Below, piece after piece: positions 13,909 to 25,622 of a stretch of DNA of 46,057 bases. The notes under the pieces are model-generated. The model saw only the letters and a program-made list of their open reading frames with translations, was not told where the DNA came from and searched no databases. The translations under genes were made by a program, and so were the position numbers. This DNA comes from Oscillospiraceae bacterium (GTDB taxonomy: Bacteria; Bacillota; Clostridia; Oscillospirales; CAG-272), in contig SVTO01000019.1 of the NCBI GenBank assembly GCA_015063745.1, forward strand, positions 1 to 46,057. Direction: 5' to 3'. Within the stretch, counting starts at the first letter, position 1, and each line of letters begins with the position of its first letter.

Positions 13909-13937
13909 TTGCAAAATATGCACTGCTGTGGTATAAT
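13909..13937 (+). promoter_or_regulatory. TerB/ATPase/helicase operon promoter
   Basis: TTGCAA (13909-13914), exact 17-bp spacer, TATAAT (13932-13937). The 50-bp leader ends in AAAAAGGAGGAG before the ATG at 13987. This looks like a constitutive sigma-A promoter; no operator-like palindrome is seen. Confidence 0.75.
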
Positions 13938-13986
13938 AAAGGAATACGAACGAATGTTTGATTTTCCCGAAAAAGGAGGAGCTGTT

Positions 13987-15867
13987 ATGTGGGACGACAA
14001 AAAAGAAGCGCCCGAAAACACGGCGGATGAAGGGGACAATTTCTGGTCCCTGCCCGTGACACACACGAAAAGCTACCGTCAGCCTTCCTTTGAGGGACGT
14101 ACCATGGATACGGTGCCGATCGGGTCGGATGAGGACGAAAAAGCATCCCACGGCGAAAAGATCCCGCCCAGAGAAAAGGATGCGCCCGTGAGCCGTCCTG
14201 TACGGTCTGCGGATCGTGTGCCCTCCTACCGGACCTCCGTATATGCCGGGGATGGGTACAAGGCCTACGGCAGGGATGCCCGAGGATGGCCGGAGAAAAA
14301 GACGGAGGATGTGGATTTCAACGATCTGCCCGTCCGTCCGAAGCAGAAGCACGCCGCCGGGGAGACGCTTTCGGAAAGAACGGGCAGCGGCTGGCTCATC
14401 CGACAGATCACCGTACGCCGCTGGATCAACGATTTCTCCTTCTACGGCCGGTTCGCCCATGATGCGGAGATCAGCCACAACCGATGCGGAAAGCCCGAAG
14501 ACGGCGGGGAGGCGGTTCCCTTTTTCGCCTATGTGCCCCAGTACGCCCAGATGAACAGCCGGCAGCTCGGTTATTATCTCTGGTTCCGGGACCAGACAAA
14601 GGCCGGTGTATATCCCCAGGCGGATATGGCGTATATTGTACTGTATGTATTCGAAATTCTGAATCTGCCCCATCTGATCCCGCCGGCGGAAGGGATTGAG
14701 ATCCTGTGCCGTCTGTGGGTGCATTACAGGCAGATCTATCCCAGACTGGACAGCTATCTCGGCGAGTGGGTACCAGATTATTCCATGATCCACGATGTAC
14801 CCCTGCCCTCTCTGGTGTTCGCCATTCTGCCGGAAATCGTCCGCAAGGCACAGTTCAAGGAATTCTATCTGGATTTCATCCGAGAAGCGGACAGGCGGGA
14901 TATGGAAACGCTGGCGGACATTCTCATCGAGGCCTATTCGGATTACGACTACCGCAAGAGCCGGTATTACAACACCAACAAGGAACTGTTCGACCGGGAG
15001 ATCCGCGGGGCTTTGTGTGCGGTGCTCACCGATGCGTGGCAGAAGAAGCGGGATATTTTTGTTCTCGACCGTACCTATCGGCTGACAAGGGACGCCTACT
15101 GCGGTGCCATTGCCCAGACGGATGTGAAGCGGCGGATCGATATTTCCTTCCATTCCTGCATCCGTCCGCCGGAAACACGGAAATTTGTGACGGATATTGT
15201 AAAGTATGCGGAAAACCGACTGCGTCTGCAGCTGCGGATCAAATCCAAGCTGGGAGATGCGGGGATTTCGCCGGAAGACCGGAAGTTGGTGGACGAATAC
15301 TTCGGCGGCGAGCCTGTTCCCTCCGGTACACGCAGGAAGGAAGCGGCAGAACCGGAATATCTGAAGTTGTACGAAGCAGAGTCCTCCGGGTTTGATTTTT
15401 CCTCCGCGGGTGCCATTGAAGCGGCGTCCTGGAGCAACACGGAAAAACTGACGGAAGAGGAGATCTTTGCCGTTCCCGTATCCGCGTGTGACAGCGGGGA
15501 GGATGAATCCGAGGATCTGTTTTCCGTCGGTCTGTCCACCGATACGGCAGAGGAGATTCTCTCCGGACCGGCTATGGCGGACACGGAAGAGGATTCTGCG
15601 GCGGAAAGTTCTCAGGCAGCGGATTTTGTCAGGGAAGATACAGCGGAATATGTTTTGGAAAAAGCGGCGGTTCGTGCGCTGCTTACGGGCAATTTTTCGG
15701 AATTCTGCAGGGAACGGGGACTTTTCCCGGGGCAGATGACGGATGCCGTAAACGAAATTTTCCTGGACCTGATCGGGGATATCCTCATCGAGGACAACGG
15801 TACGGGGAAGGATTTTCACATATTGGATGATTACAGGGAGGAAGCGGAAACGTGGAGCAGAACCTGA
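13987..15867 (+). CDS. TerB_N/TerB_C domain protein
   Basis: A 626-residue protein. The ATG at 13987 (MWDDKK) has a perfect GGAGG site, so the longer frame from 13909, which covers the promoter, is rejected. Residues 1-130 are polar and probably disordered. Residues about 140-330 match the TerB_N pattern (FFAYVPQYAQM...YYLWFRDQ...ADMAYIVLYVFEILNL). A charged middle region (about 330-480) includes RKSRYYNTNKELFDREIRG. Residues about 480-570 are acidic linker. The C-terminus (NEIFLDLIGDILIE...LDDYREE) fits TerB_C. TerB_N/TerB_C proteins are known from comparative genomics to occur with P-loop ATPases and SF2 helicases; none has a proven activity known to me. It overlaps the next gene by 16 bp. 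A scaffold or sensor role is inferred. Confidence 0.75.
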   Translation: MWDDKKEAPENTADEGDNFWSLPVTHTKSYRQPSFEGRTMDTVPIGSDEDEKASHGEKIPPREKDAPVSRPVRSADRVPSYRTSVYAGDGYKAYGRDARGWPEKKTEDVDFNDLPVRPKQKHAAGETLSERTGSGWLIRQITVRRWINDFSFYGRFAHDAEISHNRCGKPEDGGEAVPFFAYVPQYAQMNSRQLGYYLWFRDQTKAGVYPQADMAYIVLYVFEILNLPHLIPPAEGIEILCRLWVHYRQIYPRLDSYLGEWVPDYSMIHDVPLPSLVFAILPEIVRKAQFKEFYLDFIREADRRDMETLADILIEAYSDYDYRKSRYYNTNKELFDREIRGALCAVLTDAWQKKRDIFVLDRTYRLTRDAYCGAIAQTDVKRRIDISFHSCIRPPETRKFVTDIVKYAENRLRLQLRIKSKLGDAGISPEDRKLVDEYFGGEPVPSGTRRKEAAEPEYLKLYEAESSGFDFSSAGAIEAASWSNTEKLTEEEIFAVPVSACDSGEDESEDLFSVGLSTDTAEEILSGPAMADTEEDSAAESSQAADFVREDTAEYVLEKAAVRALLTGNFSEFCRERGLFPGQMTDAVNEIFLDLIGDILIEDNGTGKDFHILDDYREEAETWSRT

Positions 15868-17222
15868 ATGTAAAAAAAGTACCGAAGCGGATTCTGGGGA
15901 CCTTGCTGTCCGCTGTATCCGCCGGGGTTGTGCCCAGAGTGGGTGCGCCCTATATTGCCATCGGCCGGCTGGATGAGATCGAAGCCCTGACGACTTCCCT
16001 GACCAGAGTGGCCGACGGAGAAGGAAGCTGTAAATTCATCATCGGCCGGTACGGTTCCGGTAAGAGCTTTCTCATACAGCTCTCCAGAGGCTATGCGCTG
16101 GACAAGGGATTTCTGACGGCGGACTGCGATCTGTCCCCCGAAAGAAAGCTGTCCGGTTCCGGCGGTGCGGGGCTTTCCACCTACAGAGAACTGATGAAAA
16201 ATCTCGCCTGCAAGACCCAGCCCGACGGCGGTGCGCTTCCGGTGATCATCAGCCGCTGGTTCAGTCAGATCCGGGCTTCCCTGGCGGAAGAGGGGATGGA
16301 CACGGAATCCGCCGCCTTTGATGAAGCCTTCGGCAAGCGGATCCTGCAGACGGTACGGGAACTGGAAAGCGATGTGGGCGGATTCGATTTCGCCATCGTT
16401 ATGCGGGAGTACTACAATGCCTACCGGACGGAGGATGATCTGAAGATGTCCGCCTGTCTCCGCTGGTTCCGCGGGGAATACAACACCCGTACGGAAGCCA
16501 GACAGGCCCTGGGTATCCGTTCCGTCTCCGTCATCAACGACGACAACTGGTACGATCACTTAAAGCTCATCACGGCCTTCGCCAGACTGGTGGGCTATGC
16601 GGGGCTGTGCATTTTCATTGACGAATGTGTGAATCTGTTCAAGATCTCCAACCGTCTGTCCCGCGAGAACAATTACGAAAAAATCCTCGCTATGTTCAAC
16701 GACACCATGCAGGGCAGAGCGCCGGGTATGATGATCGTTTTCGGCGGCACACCCCAGTTTCTGGAGGACAGCCGGCGCGGTCTGTTCAGCTATGAAGCTC
16801 TGAGAAGCCGGCTTGCCGACGGTCGTTTCGGCGGGGAAGGACTGCGGAGCATCATGTCCCCCGTTCTGCGGCTGAAGCGGCTTTCCGACAGTGAACTGCT
16901 GGCGCTGGTTATGCGTCTCACCGCCCTGCACGGCGAATACCACGGCTATACACCGACGGTTACGGGAGATCAGATGGTATTGTTCCTGACCGATTCCCTG
17001 TCCCGGACCGGTGCCGACACCATGGTAACACCCAGAGAAATTATCAGAGATTATGTCACTTTACTGGATCTTCTGCTGACCAATCCCGACCGGAAGTTCG
17101 AGGAGATCTTCGGCGGCATGGCCCGTACGTCGGCCGATCCCGAAGAAGCCGGGGATGTTCCTGCGGAGAAGCCTTCTCCCTCTCCCGGCGGCGGCATCAC
17201 CATGGAGGATCTGGAATTTTAA
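15852..17222 (+). CDS. BrxC/BrxD-family P-loop ATPase
   Basis: A 456-residue ATPase of the DUF2791 (BREX-type ATP-binding) family. GTG start with GGGAGG about 10 bp upstream, inside the 3' end of the TerB gene, so translational coupling is likely. Walker A is GRYGSGKS (residues 65-72, Lys71), Walker B is LCIFIDEC near residue 252-260, and a sensor-like FGGTPQFLED follows near residue 300. The N-terminal KRILGTLLSAVSAGVVPRVGAPYIAIGR matches the family's lead-in to the nucleotide site. BrxD works beside the BrxHI helicase in type 2 BREX; here it also directly precedes a similar helicase. The C-terminal 40 residues are Pro/Ser/Gly-rich and disordered. Confidence 0.8.
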   Translation: MEQNLNVKKVPKRILGTLLSAVSAGVVPRVGAPYIAIGRLDEIEALTTSLTRVADGEGSCKFIIGRYGSGKSFLIQLSRGYALDKGFLTADCDLSPERKLSGSGGAGLSTYRELMKNLACKTQPDGGALPVIISRWFSQIRASLAEEGMDTESAAFDEAFGKRILQTVRELESDVGGFDFAIVMREYYNAYRTEDDLKMSACLRWFRGEYNTRTEARQALGIRSVSVINDDNWYDHLKLITAFARLVGYAGLCIFIDECVNLFKISNRLSRENNYEKILAMFNDTMQGRAPGMMIVFGGTPQFLEDSRRGLFSYEALRSRLADGRFGGEGLRSIMSPVLRLKRLSDSELLALVMRLTALHGEYHGYTPTVTGDQMVLFLTDSLSRTGADTMVTPREIIRDYVTLLDLLLTNPDRKFEEIFGGMARTSADPEEAGDVPAEKPSPSPGGGITMEDLEF

Positions 17223-17245
17223 AATATATTGCACAGGAGGTTATT

Positions 17246-19519
17246 ATGTCTGTATTTGATTCCTATTCCCCTTTCATCCGCGAATTCATCTATGCGCGTG
17301 GCTGGGATCAGCTCAGTGAAATTCAGGTTTCCGCAGCGGATATTCTGTTTCATACGGATCACAACCTCCTGCTCCCTTCCCAGACGGCATCGGGAAAGAC
17401 CGAAGCGGCCTTTTTCCCCATTCTGTCGGAATTCTATGAGGATATGCCCCGATCCGTTGGGGTAATCTACATTGCGCCGCTGAAATCCCTGATCAACGAC
17501 CAGTTCGTACGGATCACGGAGCTGTGCAACGAAACGGGAATTCCCGTATATCACTGGCACGGGGATGTGGCGGCTTCTCACAAAAACAAGGTTATGAAGG
17601 ACCCCAAGGGGATTCTGCAGATCACGCCGGAATCCCTTGAGGGTATGCTCATTCACCGCAACAGCGATCTGCTCCGTCTCTTCGGTGATCTGCGGTACAT
17701 CATCATCGACGAGATCCACACCCTGACCGGCACCGACCGCGGCAATCAGATCCTCTGTCAGCTGGCCAGACTGCGGGAACGCACCGGTGTCTCTCCCAGA
17801 CGCATCGGTCTGTCGGCCACCATCGGGGATATGGACCGGGCGGCGGCATGGCTGGGTGCGGCAAGCGGACGGGAAACGGTTGTTCCCGAGATCACCCCGG
17901 CGAAAATCCGCTGGCGGCTCGGTATGGAGCATTTCTACATCAAGGAAAAGGATGTGGCGGAAATTCCCTCAGCGGAAAACGCCGGGAATGATGCCATTTC
18001 GCTGGATTTGGGATATGAATATATTTACGACTGTACCCGGGACAGAAAAGCGATCGTGTTTTCCAATTCCCGTGAAGAAACCGAATATGTGACCGCCACG
18101 CTCAGACAGATTGCGGAACGCCGGGGAGAACCGGATGTATTTCTCATCCACCACGGTTTTCTCTCCGCCTCCATCAGAGAAGAAGCGGAAATGCGGATGA
18201 AGGATGACGATCTGCGGCACGTGGTCTGCGCTACGGTCACCATGGAGCTGGGTATCGACATCGGCAGGCTGGAAAGAGTCATCCAGTCCGGTGCGCCCAA
18301 TACCGTTTCCTCCTTTCTGCAGAGACTGGGCCGAAGCGGCAGACGGGGCGATCCGCCGGAAATGATGATGGTATTCAGAGAAGAAAATCCCCTGCCCAAC
18401 ACGCCCCTGCCCCAGCTGATCCCGTGGGAACTGCTGAAAGCCATTGCGGTGGTGCAGCTCTACATTGAGGAACGCTTTATCGAACCGCCGAACATCCGCA
18501 AACAGCCCTACAGTCTCATGTTCCAGCAGACTCTGTCCGTTCTGGCTGCTGCCGGTGCGCTGACTCCTGCGGCTCTGGCGGAAAGAGTTATGGCGCTGCC
18601 GCCTTTTCAATATGTGACCAAAGAGGATTACAAGACCCTGATGCTGTCCATGATCCAGAACGACTGGCTGGAAATGACGGAAGAGAGAGAACTGATCCTC
18701 GGCCTGCGGGGCGAGAGACTGGTGAACTCCTTCAAGTTCTATGCGGTGTTCAAGGATACGGACGATTATACGGTACGCTGTGAATCCGACGAGATCGGGA
18801 TTCTCAACAGTCCTCCGCCGGTGGGAGACCGGTTCGCGCTGGCCGGACGGGTTTGGGAAGTGGAGGATCTGGATCTGCCCAGACATCTGATTTATGTAAA
18901 ACCCGTGAAGGGCAAAATGGAGGTGGCCTGGCCGGGTGATTACGGTGAGGTACACACCAGAATCCTGGAACGGATGCGGCAGGTGCTAAGAGAAGATACC
19001 GAATATCCCTACCTGAAGGAAGGGGCGCTGAAGCGTCTGCGGGTGGCAAGAGCCCTTGCACGCAGTACGGGACTGTGCGATCACTCCATTCTGCGGCTGG
19101 GCGGCTATACCTGGGCCCTGTTCCCCTGGCTGGGTACCCGTTCCTTCCGCACGCTGAGACGGTATCTGGTGCGCAATGCCGGTGCTTTCCGTCTGTCCGG
19201 GCTGGAATTTGAGGGATGCCACTACATGACCTTCAAGCTGGAAGGCGGAAACGGTGACGATCTGATCCGGATGCTTGCCGAAAAGACGGCGGCGGAAGGG
19301 GTGGATCTGGAATCCTTAATCGGCGAAACGGAAGCGCCTGTTTTTGAAAAGTATGACGAATTCATTCCCTCAGCCCTTCTGCGCAAGGCGTACCGGGACG
19401 ACAAGCTCCGCAGTGACGAGATGATCCCCCGTCTGGCCCAGATCGCATCCGAAGGCCGTGCCCCCCGTGCGGCAGACCCGGCGGATATGGAAGAGGTTAT
19501 GGAAACTTTTGAACATTAA
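17246..19519 (+). CDS. Lhr/BrxHI-like superfamily 2 helicase
   Basis: A 757-residue DExH helicase. Motif I is PSQTASGKTEA (about residues 45-55), Ia YIAPLKSLIND, II DEIH (155-158), III GLSATIGD, IV IVFSNSREETEY, V CATVTMELGIDIG, and VI QRLGRSGRRGD (about 358-368). The C-terminal 300 residues contain a winged-helix region and an extra domain as in Lhr-type enzymes, which are about twice this length in their long form. ATG at 17246 with AGGAGG. The gap from the ATPase gene is 23 bp. The likely role is ATP-driven DNA or RNA strand separation within the same complex. Confidence 0.9.
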   Translation: MSVFDSYSPFIREFIYARGWDQLSEIQVSAADILFHTDHNLLLPSQTASGKTEAAFFPILSEFYEDMPRSVGVIYIAPLKSLINDQFVRITELCNETGIPVYHWHGDVAASHKNKVMKDPKGILQITPESLEGMLIHRNSDLLRLFGDLRYIIIDEIHTLTGTDRGNQILCQLARLRERTGVSPRRIGLSATIGDMDRAAAWLGAASGRETVVPEITPAKIRWRLGMEHFYIKEKDVAEIPSAENAGNDAISLDLGYEYIYDCTRDRKAIVFSNSREETEYVTATLRQIAERRGEPDVFLIHHGFLSASIREEAEMRMKDDDLRHVVCATVTMELGIDIGRLERVIQSGAPNTVSSFLQRLGRSGRRGDPPEMMMVFREENPLPNTPLPQLIPWELLKAIAVVQLYIEERFIEPPNIRKQPYSLMFQQTLSVLAAAGALTPAALAERVMALPPFQYVTKEDYKTLMLSMIQNDWLEMTEERELILGLRGERLVNSFKFYAVFKDTDDYTVRCESDEIGILNSPPPVGDRFALAGRVWEVEDLDLPRHLIYVKPVKGKMEVAWPGDYGEVHTRILERMRQVLREDTEYPYLKEGALKRLRVARALARSTGLCDHSILRLGGYTWALFPWLGTRSFRTLRRYLVRNAGAFRLSGLEFEGCHYMTFKLEGGNGDDLIRMLAEKTAAEGVDLESLIGETEAPVFEKYDEFIPSALLRKAYRDDKLRSDEMIPRLAQIASEGRAPRAADPADMEEVMETFEH

Positions 19520-22485: not shown

Positions 22486-22514
22486 TTGACACCGGAAGCA
22501 GATTGTGGTATACT
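22486..22514 (+). promoter_or_regulatory. Promoter of the T-box transcript
   Basis: Consensus TTGACA (22486-22491), 17-bp spacer, TATACT (22509-22514). Transcription would begin near 22521, just before the T-box Stem I. Confidence 0.8.
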
Positions 22515-22538
22515 ATGTACCATGATACAGAAATGCAA

Positions 22539-22838
22539 TGACTGGGGAAAACCCATCGGATGAAAGTCTTCAGAGAGTTGTCGTTTGGTGCAAGACAGCG
22601 GCTGGTTTCGATGATCTCACCCCACAGCAGTCATCCGAACACTCATTCCCCCCGTATTCTTTGTGGGTTGATGGGTCAGTAGACATGAACGGCATCCTAC
22701 CGTTATCCGGGAAAGGCATCGTGTTGTGCCTGTTTAAGTGGGTATTTCATTTACCAAACAGAGTGGTACCACGGAAGTTTTGTTCGCTTTCGTCTCTGTC
22801 AGAATCTTGTCTGGCGGGATGGAGCGTTTTTTGTTTTT
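22539..22838 (+). promoter_or_regulatory. T-box leader, probably leucine-specific
   Basis: A tRNA-sensing transcriptional attenuator. Stem I begins with TGACTG (22539-22544), pairing perfectly with CAGTCA (22628-22633), then GGG with CCC. It contains AGAGAG (22572-22577) and the distal loop TTTGGTGCAA. The canonical T-box AGAGTGGTACCACG is at 22760-22773 (12 of 14 match the consensus AGGGTGGNACCGCG). CAGAG and CTCTG (about 22759 and 22794) form the antiterminator helix; CGTCTCTG can instead pair with GGATGGAG before T6-G-T5. The specifier loop (22614-22619, ATCTCA) flanked by CGATG/CATCG and CCCC suggests specifier CTC then A, i.e. Leu. UGGU pairs with a discriminator A, consistent with tRNA-Leu. 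The specifier call is by eye. Confidence 0.85.
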
Positions 22839-22880
22839 CTGTATTTTCATACATTTTTATTCTGAAAGGACACAAACCGT

Positions 22881-25415
22881 ATGAAACTCTCTTTCTCCAC
22901 ATTGGGTTGTCCCGATTTCGCCTGGACGGATATTTATACGCTGGCCAAGGACTTCGGCTTCCACGGCATTGAGGTACGCGGACTGGGTAACGATATTTTC
23001 TCCGTTCACGCTTCCCCCTTCCTCCCCGAAAACATCGAAAACACCAAAGCGACCCTGAAGCAGCTGAAGCTGGAAATCTGCTGTCTCTCTTCCGGATGTG
23101 CGCTCCGTTTCGCCGAAAAGCATGAGGAATCCATTGCGGAATTGAAAGAATACATCGCCCTGGCTGCAGCACTCGGTACGCCCTACATCCGTGTTCTGGG
23201 CGACCTGACCTCCGGTATCACCACCGATTTTCCCGACGAAAATGTCATCGAACCCATGAAAATTCTCGCCCCCATTGCCGAAGAAGCGGGCGTTATCCTC
23301 CTGATCGAAACCAACGGCGTATACTCCGACTCCGCCCGTCTGGCCGATGTTCTGGCACAGATCGGCAGCGACAGCGTGGGTGCGCTCTGGGACTGGAACC
23401 ATCCCTACCGCTTCAACGGCGAAATGCCCGAAACCACCATCAACAATCTGGGCGCCTATATCAAGCACTGCCACATCAAGGACTCCGTTATGAAGGACGG
23501 CAAGGTGGAATACCGTCTCGTAGGTGAAGGCGATCTGCCTCCCATGGCGGAATACATGAAGGCGCTCCGTTCTCTGAATTACGAAGGCTACATCTCCCTC
23601 GAATGGCTCAAGCAGTACGACCCCGAGCTGTCCGATGCGGGTATCGTATTCCCCCATTATGCGCACTTTATGTCCCAGTACCTCGGGCTGGATGACGGTA
23701 CCAAGAGACTGCAGAAGAACAAGCGGGGCGACGGTTACTTCGTATGGGAAAAGGACCAGTTGATCGACATGACTTTCCCCCAGGTGCTGGACCGTATGTG
23801 CGAAGAATTCCCGGATCAGTACGCTTTCCGGTTTACCGAATTTGACTATAACAGAACCTATCCCGAATTCCGGGAGGATGTGGATACCTTCGCCCGTGCG
23901 TTGATCTCCATGGGCGTGAAGCAGGGGGACCATGTGGCAATCTGGGCGACCAATGTACCCGCGTGGTTCATCACCTTCTGGGCAAGCGTAAAGATCGGTG
24001 CGGTTCTCGTTACCGTAAACACCGCCTACAAGATCCACGAGGCCGAATACCTGCTCCGTCAGTCCGACACCCATACGCTGGTTATGGTGGACGGTTACAA
24101 GGATTCCGACTATGTGTCCATCATCAAGGAACTGGTGCCCGAGCTGGAAGACAATGAAGAAGTTAAGCCCATCCACAGCCGCAAGCTTCCCTTCCTGCGC
24201 AACATCATCACCGTGGATTCCAAGCAGAAGGGCTGCTGGACATGGGATGAAGCTATGGCACAGGCCGAAAAGACCCCCATCGAAGCCGTTTACCGCCGTG
24301 CTGCGCTGATCAACAAGCATGATGTATGCAATATGCAGTACACCTCCGGCACCACCGGTTTCCCCAAGGGTGTTATGCTGACCCATTACAACATCGTCAA
24401 CGACGGTAAGGCCATCGGCGACCGTATGGATCTGTCCACTGCGGACCGTATGATGATTCAGGTACCCATGTTCCACTGTTTCGGCATGGTACTGGCGATG
24501 ACCGCTTCCATGACCCACGGCGTGACCATGTCCCCCATCTCCGCCTTCTCTCCCAGAAAGGGTCTGCACTGCATCAACAAGGAAAAGATCACCTGCTTCC
24601 ACGGCGTACCCACCATGTTTATCGCCATGCTGGGGCACGAGGACTTCCCCAAGACCGACTTCTCACATATGCGTACCGGTATCATGGCCGGCTCTCCCTG
24701 CCCCGTCAAGGTTATGGAGGAAGTGGTGGAAAAGATGCATATGAGCGAGATCACCATCGTGTACGGTCAGACCGAGGCTTCCCCCGGATGCACCCAGAGT
24801 TCCACCGACGACTCCATCGAAACCCGTGTCAATACGGTAGGCCGTGCTTTCTACGGTGTGGAATGTAAGATCGTGGATCCCGAAACCGGACTGGACTGCC
24901 CCGATAATGTGGACGGCGAATTCGTGGCCAGAGGCTACAACATCATGAAGGGCTACTACAAAATGCCCGCCGCCACAGCTGCCGCCATCGACAAGGACGG
25001 CTGGCTCCACACCGGAGACCTGGCAAGACGTCTGCCCGACGGCAACTACAAGATCACCGGCCGTATCAAGGACATGATCATCCGCGGCGGCGAAAACATT
25101 TACCCCAAGGAAATCGAAGACTTTATCTACACCCATCCCAAGGTATCCGACGTACAGGTTATCGGCGTGCCCGACAAGCAGTACGGTGAAGAAATCATGG
25201 CGTGCGTAATCCTGAAGCCCGATGTGGAATGTACCGCCGAGGAAATCAAGCAGTACGTTCTGGATCACATGGCCAAGCACAAGACCCCCCGGTATGTTGT
25301 ATTCGTGGACAGCTTCCCCATGAACGCTGCCGGCAAGATTCTGAAATACAAGATGCGCGAGGATGCAAAGAAGCTGCCCGAATTCAAAGAAGCTGCCAAT
25401 ATTGTTACTGCATAA
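22881..25415 (+). CDS. Sugar isomerase/epimerase fused to AMP-forming acyl-CoA synthetase
   Basis: An 844-residue fusion. Residues 1 to about 270 form an AP-endonuclease-2/xylose-isomerase-type TIM barrel with the usual metal ligands (VILLIETNG, DWNHP, HCHIKD, ISLEW), so it looks catalytic. Residues about 290-844 form an adenylate-forming ligase: P-loop YTSGTTGFPKG (487-497), YGQTEASPG, WLHTGDLARR, GRIKDMIIRGGENIYP, and the C-terminal GKILKYKMRE with the catalytic Lys. It is continuous with no stop or frameshift at the joint. ATG at 22881 follows GAAAGGA. The ligase would activate a carboxylic acid as an acyl-AMP and then acyl-CoA. A T-box controls it, which is unusual for this family and hints at a branched-chain acid substrate. 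The isomerase substrate is unknown. Confidence 0.9.
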   Translation: MKLSFSTLGCPDFAWTDIYTLAKDFGFHGIEVRGLGNDIFSVHASPFLPENIENTKATLKQLKLEICCLSSGCALRFAEKHEESIAELKEYIALAAALGTPYIRVLGDLTSGITTDFPDENVIEPMKILAPIAEEAGVILLIETNGVYSDSARLADVLAQIGSDSVGALWDWNHPYRFNGEMPETTINNLGAYIKHCHIKDSVMKDGKVEYRLVGEGDLPPMAEYMKALRSLNYEGYISLEWLKQYDPELSDAGIVFPHYAHFMSQYLGLDDGTKRLQKNKRGDGYFVWEKDQLIDMTFPQVLDRMCEEFPDQYAFRFTEFDYNRTYPEFREDVDTFARALISMGVKQGDHVAIWATNVPAWFITFWASVKIGAVLVTVNTAYKIHEAEYLLRQSDTHTLVMVDGYKDSDYVSIIKELVPELEDNEEVKPIHSRKLPFLRNIITVDSKQKGCWTWDEAMAQAEKTPIEAVYRRAALINKHDVCNMQYTSGTTGFPKGVMLTHYNIVNDGKAIGDRMDLSTADRMMIQVPMFHCFGMVLAMTASMTHGVTMSPISAFSPRKGLHCINKEKITCFHGVPTMFIAMLGHEDFPKTDFSHMRTGIMAGSPCPVKVMEEVVEKMHMSEITIVYGQTEASPGCTQSSTDDSIETRVNTVGRAFYGVECKIVDPETGLDCPDNVDGEFVARGYNIMKGYYKMPAATAAAIDKDGWLHTGDLARRLPDGNYKITGRIKDMIIRGGENIYPKEIEDFIYTHPKVSDVQVIGVPDKQYGEEIMACVILKPDVECTAEEIKQYVLDHMAKHKTPRYVVFVDSFPMNAAGKILKYKMREDAKKLPEFKEAANIVTA

Positions 25416-25440
25416 ATACTACAACAAAATACCACAGATA

Positions 25441-25473
25441 AAACGGAGATTACATACACATCTCCGTTTTTTT
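25441..25473 (+). terminator. Intrinsic terminator after the fusion gene
   Basis: AAACGGAGAT...ATCTCCGTTTTTTT forms an 8-9 bp stem with a T7 tail, 25 bp after the stop codon. Confidence 0.85.
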
Positions 25474-25622
25474 GTAAAAATAAGGTTTTTAACAAAAAAG
25501 GTCAAAAAAGTCATATAAAAACCGCATAAAACGCATTTATTTGTATTATTATATACAATTCTTTTTGGTTCATTTATAGTATACTATATATTGGGATAAA
25601 ACAATCAGATGAGGAGGACTAT

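Follow-up and report, generated by a model that had tools for sequence, protein, structure and literature searches.

Rumen bacteria make leucine from isovalerate, CO2 and reductant (Allison 1962, 1966, as cited in PMC7356843), and the same text gives 2-methylbutyrate and isobutyrate as known rumen precursors of isoleucine and valine, respectively (PMC7356843). Ligases that act on such acids have also been described: MbcS is selective for 2-methylbutyrate and isobutyrate, performs poorly with isovalerate and feeds FabH (PMC10026030), and Macs from Methanosarcina acetivorans, the enzyme of PDB entry 3ETC, prefers 2-methylbutyrate (PMC10455477). Here we analyse a stretch of 46,057 nucleotides from an Oscillospiraceae bacterium (assembly GCA_015063745.1, contig SVTO01000019.1), referred to as the window, in which a leucine-type T-box leader precedes a gene for a TIM barrel fused to an AMP-forming acyl-CoA ligase, hereafter the Leu ligase. 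We consider it likely, and hold with good confidence, that this is a ligase controlled by tRNA-Leu that captures isovalerate for leucine synthesis, as one arm of a regulon of acid ligases under T-box control.

The T-box leader and the fusion gene behind it

The covariance model RF00230 aligns over its entire length (1-219 of 219) to positions 22529-22800 of the forward strand, with 90.1 bits and an E-value of 2e-20. The original prediction had placed leader and gene at 22539..25415; the gene end was correct, and the leader starts ten bases earlier, at 22529. This score falls slightly short of the 93 bits needed for gathering, and a scan at that threshold therefore lists no T-box here. This threshold seems strict for the lineage, since six of the seven leaders that precede classical targets in the window's genome also fall short of it, and only two of its 11 T-boxes, namely those before valS and before the C5 ligase described below, reach it.

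All elements of the leader lie on the forward strand. GGGG at 22544-22547 (5' strand) and CCCC at 22620-22623 (3' strand) form a helix beneath the specifier loop and close to the Stem I base, and an upper helix bounds the loop on its other side. The specifier codon, CUC for leucine (22616-22618), is followed by an A that borders CCCC on its 5' side. The T-box sequence AGAGTGGTACCACG (= AGAGUGGUACCACG), as read from the sequence together with the RF00230 alignment, is at 22760-22773, and its UGGU (22764-22767) fits the 3' ACCA of tRNA-Leu. A tRNA-Leu with anticodon GAG is present in the window's genome, and the discriminator A at its encoded 3' end fits this same UGGU. The antiterminator (22758-22799; -13.0 kcal/mol, with 22 of 500 shuffles equally stable) shares positions 22785-22799 with an intrinsic terminator (22785-22826, then TTTTTTGTTTTT; -21.3 kcal/mol, with none of 500 mononucleotide shuffles equally stable), and the two cannot coexist. 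Thus, the T-box and terminator that had been proposed, as well as the competition on which the proposal depended, were confirmed. A consensus terminator scanner did not list the terminator at 22785-22826, probably because its stem is interrupted. When compared with shuffles, the fold of the whole leader is only modestly better (z of -1.22, 10 of 100 equally stable), and so it is the covariance model and the homologues, rather than folding energy, that make the case for a T-box.

To read specifiers we used a rule that requires the Stem I base in addition to the specifier itself, and its counts were kept apart from readings made by eye. Its top call on seven control T-boxes with known targets was right in four cases, wrong in two and absent in one (for serS, the second call was right); the rule is a fair but imperfect guide to the codon. 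It was then applied to 59 homologous leaders, a set composed of motif-bearing loci only and, given the contigs shared by both collections, of 52 distinct leaders. Calls were obtained for 56 of them, namely, 44 CUC, six CUG and six other codons, and the leucine specifier that had been claimed is borne out by 50 of these 56. Among the six other calls, inspection by eye gave CUG with a longer helix for L014, L015 and L064 (the last on the same contig as L015) and CUC for L104, and settled no codon for L109 and L131. The three uncalled leaders read CUG (L069) and CUC (L089 and L136). An isoleucine reading, AUC inside gAUCUCa, was considered and rejected, as the lower helix begins only after CUCA. 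The closest relative, G008, has CUCUCA instead of AUCUCA through a C that replaces A22614 or its alignment neighbour, by which AUC is lost and CUC kept, and more distant leaders retain CUC or switch to CUG.

The arrangement itself, T-box plus ligase, recurs in homologues as anticipated. A T-box motif precedes the fusion at 27 of 30 loci from relatives (in G008, with a base change in the motif); 23 of these 27 were called CUC, L014 and L015 were miscalled, and L017 and L038 were uncalled and read CUC by eye. No motif was found at L024 (269 bases examined), L039 and L041. In the genome collection, 44 of 80 loci with the fusion have a strict motif upstream; by comparison, six of 1,382 control blocks (each 600 bases long) and one of 80 opposite strands contain it.

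The fusion (P0001, 844 amino acids) is encoded at 22881-25415 and carries the domains AP_endonuc_2, AMP-binding and AMP-binding_C. The xylose-isomerase-like TIM barrel (PF01261, 22941-23612) was recognised by domain match, by an AlphaFold2 model and by Foldseek matches; it is followed by the AMP-binding domain (PF00501, 23790-24959, E-value of 2.8e-90) and the AMP-binding C-terminal domain (PF13193, 25110-25337). PF00501 and PF13193 both exceed their cut-offs, which makes the protein a member of the AMP-forming acyl-CoA synthetases (the ANL group), and a P-loop-like motif, YTSGTTGFPKG (residues 487-497), is invariant across 22 aligned fusions. Among NCBIfam models, the ligase domain scores highest with that of a subfamily of fatty-acid ligases (680 of 832 bits). 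The 50 Foldseek matches listed for the TIM barrel are xylose-isomerase-like proteins with at most 22% identity, no NCBIfam model comes near its cut-off on this part, and neither these structural matches nor the family models name its task. Among the residues regarded as candidates for a metal site, only E143 is invariant in the 22 fusions. TIM-barrel and ligase matches adjoin as separate stretches in G041, G090 and G095, which suggests that both parts work together. Relatives of the ligase part at about 49% identity occur in plasmid records, and none of the 80 records covers 80% of the fusion.

Downstream of the gene, a terminator-like hairpin with a T run (25434-25475, forward strand; -15.9 kcal/mol, z of -5.87) indicates that the leader probably governs no gene but the fusion, in line with the single sugar-isomerase-like/ligase gene that had been expected there. 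Upstream, TTGACA-17-TATACT (22486-22514, forward strand) matches a sigma-70-type promoter at 11 of 12 positions; this is a consensus match only, from a scan that found four such matches when 3.7 are expected by chance.

Sister T-box ligases and candidate pathway clusters in relatives

RF00230 finds 11 T-boxes in the window's genome. Four of them stand directly before genes for AMP-binding acyl-CoA ligases, and their specifiers are those of leucine, valine, isoleucine and tyrosine; the other seven precede valS, serS, pheST, ileS, thrS, cysE and a trpB-like gene. For the last of these (L048:465-2133) we read a UGG specifier by eye, and the script called another codon. The valine-type gene (C38, L049:726-3203) encodes an N-terminal cupin fused to a ligase, with a weak HTH match, and has the specifier GUA; the isoleucine-type gene (C40, L050:832-3186) is likewise an N-terminal cupin-ligase fusion, with the specifier AUC; and the tyrosine-type gene (C5) encodes a plain ligase, with the specifier UAC.

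These leaders are also found in relatives. Loci fetched with the C38 ligase, which comprise the valine and isoleucine types together, have the motif in 30 of 30 cases, with calls of GUA (12), GUC (2), GUU (2, both GUA by eye), AUC (10), other codons (2) and none (2). In a separate isoleucine-type set the motif occurs at 19 of 22 loci, 13 of them called AUC and five more AUC by eye; no codon was settled by eye for L211, and L210 and L173, the latter from the C38 set, are one and the same gene. The tyrosine-type ligase has the motif at 21 of 30 loci, and in every one of these 21, UAC comes after GAA. The UAC reading comes from this pattern search and not from the specifier rule, which in 13 of 21 cases was shifted by one base and gave ACA, because the helix of these leaders is one pair longer. 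In the valine-type and tyrosine-type sets, the span searched was 1,800 bases, more than in the 600-base control blocks.

For the valine and isoleucine ligases, the top NCBIfam model is MbcS (NF047394; 404.5 and 447 bits), and the best PDB sequence match of the isoleucine type is 3ETC (660 bits). Since MbcS is poor with isovalerate, a separate enzyme for this acid is to be expected, and the Leu ligase indeed has another best model. The substrates that we assign to all these ligases are predictions from kinship and specifier codon. The arms of the regulon would accordingly be leucine (isovalerate), valine (isobutyrate), isoleucine (2-methylbutyrate) and tyrosine (an arylacetate, probably 4-hydroxyphenylacetate).

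In three relatives, G034, G080 and G073, a ligase is found together with a ferredoxin oxidoreductase of the 2-ketoisovalerate type and an aminotransferase; the specifiers given for them are readings by eye. In one stretch of G034, a leucine T-box is accompanied by a LeuA-like gene and by the Leu ligase, an isoleucine T-box by its ligase and a valine T-box by its ligase; a branched-chain aminotransferase is also encoded there, together with subunits of the oxidoreductase, of which alpha exceeds the cut-off of a VorB model. This order is repeated in G080, from another family, and G073, from a third family, has leucine and isoleucine T-box ligases with oxidoreductase and aminotransferase. The LeuA-like protein between leucine T-box and Leu ligase (L224:1034-2419; also in L225, L227 and L228) has a good LeuA_dimer domain, yet only 212 of the 598.7 bits of the leuA cut-off. 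The catalytic motifs of the synthase were not seen in its sequence, and a role as a partner that senses leucine but has no synthase activity is conceivable.

G034 also carries, on one strand (L295:806-6947), a tyrosine T-box, ligase, sodium:solute symporter, IorA and IorB, a candidate unit for arylacetate uptake and carboxylation, in which the 321-base gap after the ligase could house a further promoter. In the window's genome, L293:1754-5497 encodes IorA along with a ligase that resembles PaaK (387.7 of 646.3 bits), and no T-box motif was found in the 8 kb examined.

Altogether, these data suggest the following mechanism. By the standard logic of T-boxes, the terminator would form unless uncharged tRNA-Leu is bound, and binding would lead to antitermination in the leader and let transcription reach the ligase gene. 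The ligase would then activate a branched acid, most likely isovalerate, to isovaleryl-CoA, the ferredoxin-dependent oxidoreductase would carboxylate isovaleryl-CoA to 4-methyl-2-oxopentanoate, and a branched-chain aminotransferase would convert the latter into leucine. It is the substrates, the direction of flux and antitermination in the cell that we infer in this scheme. The idea of reductive carboxylation, already part of the original prediction, gains support from the valine, isoleucine and tyrosine T-box ligases, from the clusters with oxidoreductase and aminotransferase, and from the near-exclusion of leuB described next.

Leucine pathway genes and rival explanations

The presence of pathway genes was compared among 59 genomes, including the window's own and many that are incomplete. 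The Leu ligase was counted as present, fused or split, at a minimum of 50% identity; for G060, G064 and G082 the count relies on the ligase part, with a further, separate match to the TIM barrel in G082, and for G011 it relies solely on the TIM part. Presence of the cupin ligases includes four genomes at 43-48% identity. LeuB exceeds its cut-off in four of the 45 genomes with the Leu ligase (4/44 if G011 is left out), versus 13 of the 14 without it. With one genome per genus, a sampling that lessens but does not remove shared ancestry, the counts are 3/21 versus 13/14 (p of 4.6e-6). The oxidoreductase alpha subunit has the opposite distribution, being found in 38 of the 45 genomes with the Leu ligase and in three of the 14 without. 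Within the window's genus, leuB is present in one of 25 genomes, ilvC in six and the oxidoreductase in 20, including all six genomes that are at least 90% complete. In the window's own genome, which is 82% complete, neither leuB nor ilvC was found at the thresholds used.

Several observations weigh against the isovalerate route to leucine, or against its generality. Two leuB hits below the cut-off, of about 260 bits (G070 and G075), would raise the count to 6/45 or, with one genome per genus, to 5/21 (p of 8.3e-5). The exclusion of ilvC is weaker, as it exceeds its cut-off in 11 of the 45 genomes with the Leu ligase, compared with 11 of the 14 without (p of 4.5e-4). The window's genome, at its 82% completeness, has no VorB-type alpha subunit at an E-value of 1e-40 or below; its POR_N matches are frames of 1,216, 587 and 624 residues, the last of which is IorA over cut-off. 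The strict motif is absent from 36 of the 80 collection loci with the fusion, and the valine and isoleucine ligases do not reach the curated MbcS cut-off of 850, which keeps them outside that family as defined. For the tyrosine arm, the ligase neighbourhoods fetched in G026, G062 and G070 have no T-box motif, and none of the five neighbours tested there could be recognised as IorAB. Moreover, a member of the prephenate dehydrogenase family is present in the window's genome and exceeds the cut-off in 50 of the 59 genomes, and therefore the tyrosine arm is not obligate and looks like an add-on. Lastly, five carriers of the ligase are named genomes, and leuB exceeds the cut-off in four of them, Ruminiclostridium sufflavum, Anaerobacterium chartisolvens, Formimonas warabiya and Sporomusa acidovorans, the fifth being Neglectibacter sp. 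A strict motif precedes the fusion in R. sufflavum, F. warabiya and S. acidovorans (L092, L102 and L113), and none was found at the named-genome loci L096 and L121. Since four of five named carriers keep leuB, the ligase does not depend on the classical pathway being lost, and in these genomes it would be a salvage enzyme beside the classical route.

Three other explanations were weighed against what the computation gave us, namely, the leader and its specifiers, the ligase families, the clusters of some relatives and the near-exclusion of leuB. The T-box may be real and specific for leucine while the ligase acts on another acid, for instance a longer or hydroxylated one, in a chemistry set by the TIM barrel. 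That this barrel lacks an assigned function, and that the ligase domain is closest to a model for fatty-acid ligases, would suit such a role; we nevertheless regard it as unlikely, given that the leucine specifier, the matched valine and isoleucine sisters and the scarcity of leuB fit isovalerate best, and that the poor handling of this acid by MbcS leaves a place for a dedicated enzyme. Quite unlikely, in our view, is a supply of branched acyl-CoA primers for branched-chain fatty acids of the membrane when branched-chain amino acids run short, with no carboxylation involved. T-box control would suit this role too, and MbcS, the best model of the valine and isoleucine ligases, does feed FabH; yet the ligases cluster with oxidoreductase and aminotransferase, G034 has a tyrosine T-box arm with IorAB, and both the near-exclusion of leuB and the weaker exclusion of ilvC point to amino acids. 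Membrane supply and amino acid synthesis may also coexist.

The same aminotransferase, oxidoreductase and ligase could in principle run oxidatively and ferment branched-chain amino acids in the manner of the Stickland reaction, as these enzyme families do serve oxidative fermentation in other anaerobes. The scarcity of leuB does not by itself discriminate between catabolism and synthesis. However, a terminating T-box that opens on uncharged tRNA has the wrong sign for a catabolic gene, and AMP-forming ligases are poor steps for a yield of ATP, which makes this explanation highly improbable. Returning to isovalerate capture for leucine, it is tempting to extend it to the regulon as a whole: charging of tRNA-Leu, tRNA-Val, tRNA-Ile and tRNA-Tyr would each control its own acid-capturing ligase in uncultured gut Clostridia, the acids of community fermentation, and not sugars, would be a main source of these amino acids, and the classical leucine pathway would be largely replaced in the window's genus. 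We lean towards this broader proposal, with less assurance than for the Leu ligase itself.

Elsewhere in the window, three adjacent genes at 13909-19519 match SngA, SngB and SngC of PADLOC, a trio that we take to be an anti-phage defence system of the Shango type.

Comparison with described systems

To our knowledge, the rumen route from branched acids to amino acids has no named gene set or regulation, and none was found among the literature matches listed. T-box control of acyl-CoA ligases is likewise missing from these matches, a set that lacks the 2008 Vitreschak survey and does not establish absence from print. The main text of PMC2494555, in its available part, contains no word beginning with CoA, and the available part of PMC3766115 contains no CoA ligase, CoA synthetase or ferredoxin. 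Thus, the route is known biochemistry, and control of its ligases by T-boxes, one leader per amino acid, is a feature that we did not meet in the parts of the literature covered. Because the substrate of each enzyme can be predicted from the specifier in its leader, an old question becomes directly testable, and specifier codons provide an annotation rule for ligases now named only fatty-acid ligase. A form of cross-feeding is also predicted, in which isovalerate, isobutyrate and 2-methylbutyrate set free from protein by some bacteria would sustain neighbours without a classical leucine pathway.

The leader described here resembles other RF00230 T-boxes in its Stem I with specifier, its T-box sequence, its competing antiterminator and terminator, and the presence of a tRNA with the matching anticodon. 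It differs from them in its target, since T-boxes usually control tRNA ligases, classical biosynthesis or transport, whereas four of 11 in this genome precede acyl-CoA ligases, and in a score just under gathering. The T-box of Geobacter leuA, predicted to sense tRNA-Leu(GAG), similarly precedes a gene of leucine synthesis, in that case the classical 2-isopropylmalate synthase and not a ligase (PMC2700814). Like MbcS of Staphylococcus aureus, the valine and isoleucine ligases are AMP-forming enzymes related to the use of short branched acids; unlike MbcS, which serves fatty acid synthesis, they are fused to a cupin, stand under T-boxes and fall below the curated cut-off. Macs is by sequence the closest solved structure to the isoleucine-type ligase, although it is archaeal and its matched chain of 580 residues has no cupin part. 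Finally, compared with the rumen biochemistry of Allison, as cited in PMC7356843, the present analysis puts names to candidate genes, clusters and a regulatory sensor for the route.

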